Source: a virus. Taken from it: a stretch of 32,331 nucleotides of DNA. Made by a program: the position numbers and the translations under genes. Under the pieces are notes generated by a model. The model worked only from the letters and a program-made list of their open reading frames with translations, did no database searches and was not told where the DNA came from. Shown one piece after another: positions 2,862-25,216 of this stretch (its first letter is position 1; the number at the start of each line of letters is the position of its first letter). Where the stretch lies: IMG/VR virus record IMGVR_UViG_3300008114_000275, positions 1 to 32,331 of that record. The stretch is one strand, 5' to 3'.

Positions 2862-4568
2862 ATGGCTTTTCAACTATCACCAGGTGTGAATGTCTCAGAA
2901 GTTGATTTAACTACCGTCGTACCTTCTGTGGCAACTACTGTTGGTGGTTTTGCCGGTAATTTCAACTGGGGACCTGTGAATGAAATTGTAACTATTAATA
3001 ATGAAGTTCAACTAGTAGAAAGATTTGGTAAACCAGACAGTAACACATACACCTCTTTCTTCACCGCAGCAAACTTCTTGTCATATGCAAATGACCTCCG
3101 TGTTGTTCGTTCTGTAGGTGCAGCTGCAAATAACGCCACAGTTGATGGAGTTGGTACTAGAATATTAAATAGAACTGATTATGAAGAACAATATCCAATA
3201 AGTGCTAATACTCAAGTTGGAAGTTATCCTAAAATTTTTGCAAGTAAGTATCCAGGATCTTTAGGAAATGCAATTAAAGTTTCTATGTGTGATGCAAACA
3301 CCACTTTGTTAGCTACATGGGAGTACAGAAATGAATTTAGTGCTAATGCAAACACATCTTCTTTTGCAACTTCAAAAAACCTTACCGATGATGAAATTCA
3401 CATTGTTGTTGTAGATAACACTGGTGTAATATCTGGAACTAAAGGAACAGTTTTAGAAAAATATGGTTTCTTATCAAAAATAAGAAATGCTAAAAACGAT
3501 GATGGTACTTCAAATTACTATGTTGAGGTTCTAAACAGTAGGTCAAAATATGTTTGGTGGGCAAGTCATCCTTTGGCAGATAGTAATTGGGGTGGTACAA
3601 GTGATTTTTTAATATCTCAAAATGATTTAACTTTAGACTCATTAGTTTTAACTGATTATGTTTTAAGCGGTGGAGTAGATGCTGCACCTACAGATGGTAA
3701 CAGAAACTTGTCTTATGATTTGTTTGATAACCCAGATTCGGTTGATGTTTCTTTATTGATGGCGGGTGCAACCACATCAGATACGACTCCAGATCACTTG
3801 ATTTCAATGGCAGAAAGTAGAAAAGATGTTTTAGTTTTCTTATCTCCAGAACAAGACGATTGTGTAAACAATTCTGGTAATGAAGTTACTGATATAAAGG
3901 CTTTAAGAAATACTATAACACCATCTTCTTTTGCTGTAATGGATTCAGGATGGAAATATCAATACGATAAGTATACTGATGTTTACCGTTGGATTCCTTT
4001 AAATGGAGATATTGCTGGACTATGTGCTAGAACTGATATCGAAAGAGATCCTTGGTTCTCACCAGCCGGATTCAACAGAGGTCAAATTAAAAATGTTGTT
4101 AAACTTTCTTGGAATCCAACCAAAGCTGAGCGTGATGAATTGTATAAATTAGGTATTAATCCTGTAGTTACATTCCCTGGTGAAGGCACCGTATTATATG
4201 GTGATAAGACTTTATTGTCAAGACCTAATGCGTTTGATCGTATCAATGTTCGCCGTCTATTCATTGTTTTAGAGAAATCCATTGCTAGAGCAGCACGTTC
4301 ATCATTGTTTGAATTTAATGATGAATTTACAAGAGCTCAATTCGTAAATCTTGTAGAACCATTCTTACGTGATGTACAAGGTCGCCGTGGTATTTACGAC
4401 TACCGTGTTGTATGTGATACTACAAATAATACACCAGAAGTTATTGATCGTAACGAGTTTGTTGGTGATATCTATATTAAACCTGCACGTTCAATCAACT
4501 TTATTCAACTTAACTTTGTTGCTGTACGCACAGGCGTATCGTTCAATGAAGTCGTTGGATCGTTTTAA
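2862..4568 (+). CDS. 18: Contractile tail sheath protein (gp18)
   Basis: The 568-residue protein begins with FQLSPGVNVSEVDL, the typical sheath N-terminus that forms the inter-subunit handshake strand. It also has the conserved C-terminal region (FVGDIYIKPARSINFIQLNFVAV in two parts), which is the most conserved part of phage sheath proteins. It polymerises around the gp19 tube and contracts on infection. It is shorter than T4 gp18 (659), with the difference in the surface-exposed middle domains, as in aquatic relatives. AAGGAG precedes the ATG. It is followed directly by the tube gene, the standard T4 order. Confidence 0.96.
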   Translation: MAFQLSPGVNVSEVDLTTVVPSVATTVGGFAGNFNWGPVNEIVTINNEVQLVERFGKPDSNTYTSFFTAANFLSYANDLRVVRSVGAAANNATVDGVGTRILNRTDYEEQYPISANTQVGSYPKIFASKYPGSLGNAIKVSMCDANTTLLATWEYRNEFSANANTSSFATSKNLTDDEIHIVVVDNTGVISGTKGTVLEKYGFLSKIRNAKNDDGTSNYYVEVLNSRSKYVWWASHPLADSNWGGTSDFLISQNDLTLDSLVLTDYVLSGGVDAAPTDGNRNLSYDLFDNPDSVDVSLLMAGATTSDTTPDHLISMAESRKDVLVFLSPEQDDCVNNSGNEVTDIKALRNTITPSSFAVMDSGWKYQYDKYTDVYRWIPLNGDIAGLCARTDIERDPWFSPAGFNRGQIKNVVKLSWNPTKAERDELYKLGINPVVTFPGEGTVLYGDKTLLSRPNAFDRINVRRLFIVLEKSIARAARSSLFEFNDEFTRAQFVNLVEPFLRDVQGRRGIYDYRVVCDTTNNTPEVIDRNEFVGDIYIKPARSINFIQLNFVAVRTGVSFNEVVGSF

Positions 4569-12240: not shown

Positions 12241-12771
12241 ATGACCGCGATTACTAGAAACCCTTCAAACCCAAATTTTTTACAACCTAACAAGTTTATA
12301 TTAACTTTTAGTAGGTTGCCAAATATACAATATTTTTGCCAAACGGTTACTGTGCCTGGTATTTCAATGGCAGAAATACCACAATTTACGCCGTTCGTTG
12401 ATGCTTATTTACCTGGCGAAAAAGCTATATACGATTTATTAAATGTAACATTTATGGTAGATGAAAATTTAACTTCTTGGAAAGAAGTACATGATTGGAT
12501 TCGTGCAATGACTTTCCCAGAAAACTTCGATGAGTATAAAAATTTGGCAAATTTAAATCCAAATAGAGCTCAAAGATTAAAACCACAATACTCTGATGCT
12601 AAAATAGTTTTATTATCTTCTTCTAATAACCCCGTAGTTGAGTTTGTTTTTTATGATGTTTTTCCTACATCAGTGAGTACCATCATACTCTCATCACAAG
12701 AAACTCCAGATAGTCCAGTCACTTCAGACGCAACATTTAGGTACACTTATTATGATATAAAATATGTTTGA
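12241..12771 (+). CDS. Tail-tube-fold protein, probable tail completion or baseplate component
   Basis: The 176-residue protein shows a gp19-like layout: NKFILTFSRLPNIQYFCQTVTVPGIS (about 17-42) corresponds to the tube protein's strand plus CxT-x-x-x-PG motif, and a central helical FMVDENLTSWKEVHDWI follows. It is thus probably a paralogue of the tube protein that caps or initiates the tube. In related aquatic phages the gene between 23 and uvsY is often named gp3 (tail terminator). T4 gp3 has a similar length, but I cannot distinguish gp3 from a gp54-like initiator by eye. Its stop overlaps the -35 box of the uvsY promoter. Confidence 0.7.
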   Translation: MTAITRNPSNPNFLQPNKFILTFSRLPNIQYFCQTVTVPGISMAEIPQFTPFVDAYLPGEKAIYDLLNVTFMVDENLTSWKEVHDWIRAMTFPENFDEYKNLANLNPNRAQRLKPQYSDAKIVLLSSSNNPVVEFVFYDVFPTSVSTIILSSQETPDSPVTSDATFRYTYYDIKYV

Positions 12772-12796
12772 CATTTACTAATACCTATAGTATAAT
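12768..12796 (+). promoter_or_regulatory. Consensus host-type promoter for uvsY
   Basis: TTGACA (12768-12773), a 17-base spacer and TATAAT (12791-12796) match the bacterial sigma-70 consensus at all twelve positions. Transcription should start near 12803, right at the AGGAGG ribosome-binding site, giving a leader of only about 11 bases. TTGACAT is repeated inverted as ATGTCAA at 12795-12801, which could be an operator. Confidence 0.88.
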
Positions 12797-15161: not shown

Positions 15162-15190
15162 TTGTCAAGCACTATGTCAACACTTTTATA
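15162..15190 (+). promoter_or_regulatory. Weak candidate promoter before gp55
   Basis: In the 68-base gap before gp55, TTGTCA (15162-15167) and TTTATA (15185-15190) are 17 bases apart. The hexamer TGTCAA occurs twice here as a direct repeat (15163 and 15175). The -10 match is poor, so this is tentative. Confidence 0.3.
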
Positions 15191-21099: not shown

Positions 21100-21165
21100 A
21101 ATGCGGTGAGTCCGAGACAACCTTCCCCCGAAGGCAGACAGGTTTAACTCCTGTAAACCGCTCCA
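21100..21165 (+). ncRNA. Candidate structured RNA with a tRNA-like 3' half
   Basis: Starting just downstream of an extended -10, the sequence can form a closing stem GCGGT/ACCGC (21103-21107 with 21157-21161), a hairpin CCTTC/GAAGG (21121-21134) with loop CCCC, and a hairpin ACAGG/CCTGT (21138-21154) with a 7-base loop TTTAACT. The last hairpin is followed by AAACCGC, T, CCA: exactly a T arm, 7-base acceptor strand, discriminator and CCA, resembling the end of glycine tRNAs. At 63 bases it is too short for a tRNA, has no acceptable D arm or 7-base anticodon loop, and the last two acceptor pairs fail. An alternative fold, GGTTTA/TAAACC, exposes ACTCCTG, an anti-Shine-Dalgarno-like loop. It may be a decayed tRNA, a small RNA or the 5' leader of the next gene. 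Confidence 0.4.
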
Positions 21166-21181
21166 GTTACTAATTTGACAA

Positions 21182-24823: not shown

Positions 24824-24839
24824 TTTACCTGAAAAACGC

Positions 24840-24868
24840 TTGACAACCTGTCAATAACCTAGTATAAT
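24840..24868 (+). promoter_or_regulatory. Consensus promoter for the winged-helix gene
   Basis: TTGACA (24840-24845), 17 bases, TATAAT (24863-24868): all twelve consensus positions match. TTGACA plus TGTCAA (24849-24854) forms a palindrome with a 3-base centre over the -35 box, a possible operator, perhaps for the protein it drives. Transcription should begin near 24875, just before the predicted pseudoknot. Confidence 0.9.
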
Positions 24869-24877
24869 ATACACATA

Positions 24878-24922
24878 ATTTGAGAGAACGGTTGCCTCTC
24901 AAATGACTTAAACTAAGCAACC
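24878..24922 (+). promoter_or_regulatory. Predicted H-type pseudoknot in a 5' leader
   Basis: Stem 1 pairs ATTTGAGAG (24878-24886) with CTCTCAAAT (24896-24904), nine pairs. Its 9-base loop AACGGTTGC contains GGTTGC (24890-24895), which is fully complementary to GCAACC (24917-24922), six pairs. The two stems abut with no gap, loop 1 is AAC and loop 3 is 12 bases. Six T residues follow, then the ACGGAG ribosome-binding site and the ATG at 24944. GGTTGC/GCAACC plus the T-run could instead act as a terminator if stem 1 does not form. A role in translation or attenuation control is inferred. Confidence 0.65.
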
Positions 24923-24943
24923 TTTTTTACGGAGTATTTTGTT

Positions 24944-25216
24944 ATGTCAGTTAAATCTAAAGTCCTTGCTTACCTTTCTAAAGAAGATGGTTACAACACC
25001 CTAACTCCTGCTAAAATGCAGAGCATGTTTGGTGTTTCAAATCCTTCCGCAACAATCAACGATCTTCGCAATGAAGGTTACGCTATTTACTTGAATAGCC
25101 GCTACAACAACAACGGTGAGAAGGTTTTCTTCTACCGTCTCGGCACTCCAACTAAGCGTATGGTTGCTGAAGGTATTGCAGCTATTCGTGCTCAAGGAGA
25201 GCGCGCTTTTGCTTAA
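24944..25216 (+). CDS. Small winged-helix / helix-turn-helix DNA-binding protein
   Basis: The 90-residue protein has the layout of the HTH_39 family: a first helix KSKVLAYLSKE, then LTPAKMQSMFGVSNPSATINDLRNEGYAIYL as the helix-turn-helix (about 19-50), then a YNNNGEKVFFYRLG beta wing. The C-terminal 20 residues are basic. It has the strongest promoter in the window, a structured leader and its own terminator, so it is an independently controlled and probably abundant early protein. It may be a transcription regulator or a small chromatin-like protein; its target is unknown. Confidence 0.8.
   Translation: MSVKSKVLAYLSKEDGYNTLTPAKMQSMFGVSNPSATINDLRNEGYAIYLNSRYNNNGEKVFFYRLGTPTKRMVAEGIAAIRAQGERAFA

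Follow-up and report, generated by a model that had tools for sequence, protein, structure and literature searches.

What is the role of the leader which precedes a small winged-helix gene in the IMG/VR virus record IMGVR_UViG_3300008114_000275? The window, by which we mean the whole stretch of 32,331 nucleotides that was analysed, carries this leader between a consensus promoter and a ribosome-binding site. A preliminary description, made from the letters alone, proposed that it folds into an H-type pseudoknot and is a control element, either a site of autoregulation by the encoded protein, a ligand sensor or a transcription attenuator. The features in question are the following.

24826-24829, plus strand: conserved TRCC element, read here as TACC and placed 11-14 nt before the -35 box
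24840-24845, plus strand: -35 box TTGACA, by direct read; the promoter is present in nearly all freshwater relatives
24863-24868, plus strand: -10 box TATAAT, by direct read, with a 17-bp spacer from the -35 box
24878-24886, plus strand: 5' strand of stem 1, ATTTGAGAG; 9 of 9 stem 1 pairs with two-sided changes, 93% of cells paired (65 preselected leaders)
24887-24889, plus strand: loop 1, AAC, crossing stem 2; 83 of 121 leaders have 3 nt here, with varying letters
24890-24895, plus strand: 5' strand of stem 2, GGTTGC; 100% of cells paired (same 65 leaders), two-sided changes in 6 of 7 pairs
24896-24904, plus strand: 3' strand of stem 1, CTCTCAAAT, abutting stem 2; loop 2 has length 0 in 117 of 121 leaders
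24905-24916, plus strand: loop 3, gacttaaactaa, 12 nt, crossing stem 1; 9-17 nt with a mode of 12, low information content
24917-24922, plus strand: 3' strand of stem 2, GCAACC, ending 21 nt before the ATG
24923-24928, plus strand: T6, directly after GCAACC
24931-24934, plus strand: Shine-Dalgarno sequence GGAG, starting 8 nt from the pseudoknot; in relatives the gap is usually 7-12 nt
24944-25216, plus strand: 90-aa winged-helix gene (HTH_39 / phrog_4973), the only gene accompanied by the element

A direct read of the sequence confirmed both the perfect TTGACA-17-TATAAT at 24840-24868 and the H-type pseudoknot at 24878-24922, whose stems of 9 bp and 6 bp abut each other and are followed by T6 and GGAG. 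The order of the leader is ATTTGAGAG-AAC-GGTTGC-CTCTCAAAT-gacttaaactaa-GCAACC, then T6, GGAG and the ATG at 24944. This is the geometry of a classical H-type pseudoknot, with a stem 1 of 9 bp, a loop 1 of 3 nt, a stem 2 of 6 bp, a loop 2 of 0 nt and a loop 3 of 12 nt, and the Shine-Dalgarno sequence lies outside its base pairing. A leader mini-ORF (ATG-ACT-TAA at 24903) was dropped as a candidate, as it is not kept in the relatives inspected.

The pseudoknot of the window reaches a score of 37, while dinucleotide-preserving shuffles of the leaders score at least 28 in 0.9% and at least 34 in 0.08% of cases. Single-sequence folding, the model of which excludes pseudoknots, finds stem 1 (about -9.3 kcal/mol), and the nested fold is unremarkable against shuffles (z of -0.12). 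Since the total of the single-sequence fold is ordinary, the case therefore rests on comparison. The Rfam covariance models gave no family at the gathering threshold, and at E up to 10 only matches at chance level.

For this comparison IMG/VR was searched with the 90-aa protein and with family alignments, which yielded 440 loci with 240 distinct leaders. A pseudoknot score of at least 28 is found in 139 of 241 distinct homologous leaders versus 0.9% of the shuffled leaders. Every complete leader of the 80 closest loci contains the element with differing letters, stem 2 occurring as GGTTGC/GCAACC, GGTCGC/GCGACC, GGTCTC/GAGACC, GACTGC/GCAGTC, AGTCGC/GCGACT, GATCAC/GTGATC and GAATCGC/GCGATTC. A MAFFT alignment of 45 distinct leaders has 97.7% of its cells paired and two-sided changes in 12 of 17 pairs. 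In 65 more diverse freshwater leaders stem 2 is paired in 100% of the cells, a percentage inflated by their preselection with the pseudoknot scan, so that the evidence lies in the two-sided changes, which affect 15 of 16 pairs. The C-G pair at the stem 2 junction is invariant in this set. Double-changed cells number 188 there, against 47.6 +/- 8.6 in shuffles (0 of 500 shuffles as high), and the covariation score of 0.565 falls to 0.144 or less when the partners are slid by 1-3 columns.

The preliminary description had named a lack of compensatory changes in relatives as evidence against the pseudoknot; the relatives carry such changes in both stems, and these strongly support its view of the leader as a folded control element. 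Judged from the alignments, the pseudoknot appears to be a genuinely conserved RNA structure, the pairing of which was kept while the letters changed.

Marine relatives with about 30% protein identity have a pseudoknot of unrelated sequence ahead of the same winged-helix gene, for example TTGATATG-AATAA-GTTGCC-CATATCAA...GGCAAC or TATGAGATATT-TTAA-GTTGTT-AATATCTCGTA...AACAAC. Stem 2 is paired in 17 of 17 distinct marine leaders and shows compensatory changes at two pairs, with 15 double-changed cells versus 5.5 in shuffles. Of the two crossing helices, both show compensatory change in the freshwater leaders and stem 2 does in the marine ones. The marine pseudoknot is situated between the genes for S21 and the winged-helix protein, 3-10 nt after the S21 stop codon, and a promoter scan at these sites gave scores no better than in shuffles. 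The distance from the end of stem 2 to the ATG of the winged-helix gene is 17-30 nt in freshwater leaders (mode 20-21) and 21-27 nt in marine ones. It is this distance (17-30 nt overall) which is fixed, and not the one to a promoter or a 5' end. As both groups have a similar distance to the ATG and the marine group has no promoter that outscores shuffles, the conserved relation is therefore that to the translation start of the winged-helix gene.

In one marine group (L286, about 376-425) the first stem overlaps the S21 stop codon, and it is possible that terminating ribosomes open the stem there and thereby couple translation. Several marine relatives contain neither a pseudoknot nor a hairpin.

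Four records of 120-214 kb were scanned for further copies. Each contains one pseudoknot ahead of a gene, which is always the winged-helix gene, although weaker or differently shaped copies could escape the scan. A strong second match in one record (G001, 143081) was rejected, because it lies inside a peptidase coding sequence, and the remaining matches in these long records are chance-like. The winged-helix gene itself is present in a single copy in each of six long records searched. S21 was also considered as common partner of the element and rejected, since no S21 gene was found in the freshwater records searched, some of which are possibly fragments. The only gene common to the freshwater and marine elements is that for the winged-helix protein.

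The usual locus order is peptidase, CobS-like ATPase, promoter with pseudoknot and winged-helix gene, glycosyltransferase-like gene, dATP/dGTP diphosphohydrolase-like gene, gp45 clamp and gp44 loader. Further upstream in the window a tRNA-like element (21103-21175, plus strand) is located downstream of a TATAAT promoter and ahead of the peptidase gene. It has a GCGG...CCGC end stem with TCCA, a T-arm-like ACAGGTTTAACTCCTGT and a shortened anticodon-like arm CCTTCCCCCGAAGG; neither ARAGORN nor Rfam gave a call on it, and a copy with compensatory changes is found in record G001 (L308, about 3523).

A DNA search of cultured phages gave no match. The cultured phages found in the protein search are only DLP_6, HTVC008M, Mosig and Melnitz, none of which has the pseudoknot, and a search of the genome-contig database gave no relatives. 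A survey of pelagimyophages reported no riboswitches in those phages (PMC7029224), and no description of this element was found in open-access papers.

The encoded protein is predicted to adopt a winged-helix fold (AlphaFold2 pLDDT 90, from an alignment of 36 sequences). Matches to Pfam HTH_39 (PF14090) at E up to 0.1 are seen for 35 of 36 family members, the best with 1.8e-11, and the protein of the window reaches 16.8 bits against a curated cut-off of 21.3. The best structural neighbours of the model are archaeal and bacterial DNA-binding winged helices with Z near 8, a level which may reflect merely a common fold. The fold resembles DNA-binding regulators, and an RNA-specific feature was not seen in it.

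The leader types are strongly clustered on the protein tree, which is built on few informative columns, with 4 changes compared to 55 in shuffles; the label 'PKfresh' of L289 on this tree is a scanner artefact with a chance-level score. In a sister clade (L336-L415) with the same gene, a short 5' hairpin (CTTGC-loop-GCAAG) replaces the pseudoknot. In 34 of 38 cases 7 nt separate this hairpin from the -10 box, and the spacer to the ATG is longer, mostly 31-39 nt. This clade forms one branch (support 99) beside pseudoknot-bearing rows. It is derived within the winged-helix gene family, and the pseudoknot is dispensable in some lineages. Lineages with neither structure separate the marine from the freshwater pseudoknots on the tree, and the two groups may go back either to common descent with losses or to independent origins.

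The pseudoknot was observed to covary, to keep its place before the start codon, to occur once in each genome scanned and to accompany the gene in two operon contexts; it is read here as a cis-acting translational operator of the 90-aa winged-helix gene, most likely an autogenous one, and we give this reading a probability of about 45%. We infer that the element acts at translation initiation because its distance to the start is kept in two transcript contexts. Autogenous repression by the winged-helix protein is suggested less strongly, by the facts that this gene is the only constant partner and that the element is single. The first approximately 45 nt of the mRNA would fold into the H-type pseudoknot, the 3' edge of which, 8 nt from the Shine-Dalgarno sequence, would lie at the border of the ribosome footprint. 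A protein sitting on the pseudoknot could then block loading of the 30S subunit; the likeliest partner would be the winged-helix protein itself, and a strongly transcribed gene would in this way cease to be translated when its product has become sufficient, as described for T4 gp32. As the Shine-Dalgarno sequence lies outside the pseudoknot, the fold alone need not repress.

An alternative, which we regard as unlikely, is that the pseudoknot is a stabiliser at the 5' terminus of the mRNA, which shields it from RppH and RNase E and raises the yield of an abundant small protein with no regulator involved. In freshwater leaders the commonest distance from the -10 box to stem 1 is 8 nt, so that stem 1 is predicted to begin at or next to the +1 in these phages. 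Unrelated simple hairpins occupy this place in the sister clade and in the cultured phage Melnitz, and the loops of the pseudoknot are little conserved, all of which would suit such a role. It requires, however, neither a pseudoknot rather than a hairpin nor a similar ATG distance in both groups, and in the marine group the pseudoknot lies between two cistrons, after S21, where promoter scores do not exceed those of shuffles. As sole role 5'-end protection fails for the marine cases; it may still apply in the freshwater phages and in the hairpin clade.

Somewhat less probable still is an operator for another RNA-binding protein of phage or host, such as a homologue of the single-stranded DNA-binding protein gp32, a RegA-like protein or a ribosomal protein, which would exert control in trans. 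Ribosomal proteins bind pseudoknots, and the marine element adjoins S21. In T4, gp32 recognises a pseudoknot in the mRNA of its own gene (PMC535899). Yet no S21 gene turned up in the freshwater phages that carry the element, and such a protein would be expected to have further sites, while the scans of four records revealed one per genome.

The ligand sensor, that is, a small-molecule riboswitch at the Shine-Dalgarno sequence like the preQ1 or SAM-II class pseudoknots, finds no support beyond the compact H-type fold just 5' of the Shine-Dalgarno sequence and is very improbable: a strongly conserved unpaired core is missing, with means of 0.64 bits at unpaired and 1.12 bits at paired positions, loop lengths and letters vary, there is no match in Rfam, and the linked gene is of a regulator type and not metabolic. 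The least probable proposal is the attenuator, in which GGTTGC/GCAACC and T6 would form an intrinsic terminator, because, although T6 directly follows GCAACC in the window, a T-run of at least 5 within 8 nt after stem 2 occurs in only 33 of 122 leaders, the 6-bp stem with its 21-nt loop is weak (-5.6 kcal/mol), stems 1 and 2 are compatible and not alternative, and the closest large relative has TGTATT in place of the T-run.

For the translational operator it follows from the wide differences in stem sequence between the groups that any binding partner would need to recognise the shape or only a handful of letters. We tentatively suggest, as a possible though somewhat doubtful extension, that a winged-helix protein with a DNA-binding fold reads an RNA pseudoknot by its shape and represses its own translation. 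Freshwater and marine T4-like phages alike would then have retained this circuit, although nearly all of the RNA sequence was replaced and the gene switched between a promoter of its own and an S21 operon.

The promoter region was inspected as well. Perfect TTGACA-17-TATAAT matches occur three times in the window, compared to 0.03 expected; the other two are at 12768-12796 (plus strand) and 4193-4221 (minus strand), the latter antisense within a coding region. The TRCC element is conserved with 92% for T, 91% for C and 97% for C in 91 freshwater pseudoknot promoters and with 90/85/80% in the promoters of the hairpin clade. The motif is almost as conserved as the -35 box over two leader clades and about 130 related promoters, and is possibly an activator site. 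A minus-strand promoter near 15180 likewise has TRCC, 14 nt upstream of it.

The palindrome which the preliminary description had noticed at the -35 box is present (TTGAC/GTCAA, arms of 5 bp), but its suggested role as a second layer of control found no support. A 5-bp inverted repeat is found in about 35% of shuffled promoter segments and the one of the window is missing from near relatives such as L003, so that it was rejected as a conserved operator. Longer inverted repeats with arms of at least 7 bp are seen in 21 of 103 freshwater promoters versus 3% in shuffles, with varying sequence, and the proportion among the promoters of relatives is 20-48% versus the same 3%. They span the -35 box or the spacer upstream of the winged-helix gene, e.g. 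in L447, L059, L043, L050, L441 and L450, and another long one is present in L486 (about 1429-1444). These palindromes of the relatives are real in the sense of being above chance, but have no conserved operator sequence.

The element very probably adds an undescribed cis-regulatory RNA with strong covariation to common aquatic phages, the gene control of which is almost unknown. It provides a compact test case for a protein and an RNA operator staying together through sequence turnover, and for whether phage winged-helix proteins control translation. A contrast between pseudoknot, simple 5' hairpin and no structure is available inside one gene family.

Among known systems, the operator pseudoknots of S15 and of S4 in the alpha operon overlap the Shine-Dalgarno sequence or the start codon. 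They resemble the present element in that a pseudoknot lies where translation of the regulated gene starts and in that no small molecule is involved, whereas the element described here ends most often 7-12 nt before the Shine-Dalgarno sequence. The SAM-II, SAM-SAH and preQ1-I riboswitches likewise consist of a small H-type pseudoknot that precedes the Shine-Dalgarno sequence, but differ by their conserved aptamer core and their Rfam families, to which nothing corresponds here. T4 gene 43, a self-controlling phage gene, also has a structured operator upstream of its ribosome-binding site (PMC3014915); this is a hairpin on a DNA polymerase gene and not a pseudoknot. The operator of T4 gene 32 begins with a 5' pseudoknot of about 28 nt, followed by more than 40 nt that are less structured and contain UUAAA repeats (PMC535899; T4 operators are reviewed in PMC3014915). 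In both, a single gene carries an H-type pseudoknot ahead of its ribosome-binding site, and the control is autogenous and translational, which in our case is a proposal. T4-like gene content is shared as well, since the window contains genes for the gp45 clamp and the gp44 loader. In contrast to gene 32, the gene here encodes a 90-aa winged helix and not a single-stranded DNA-binding protein, the distance to the AUG is 21 nt with no UUAAA repeat in between (17-30 nt in relatives), and the pseudoknot is located at or next to the 5' end of the transcript or behind S21. By its gene and its downstream tract the leader is thus not a member of the T4 gene 32 operators, but it may work in a similar way.
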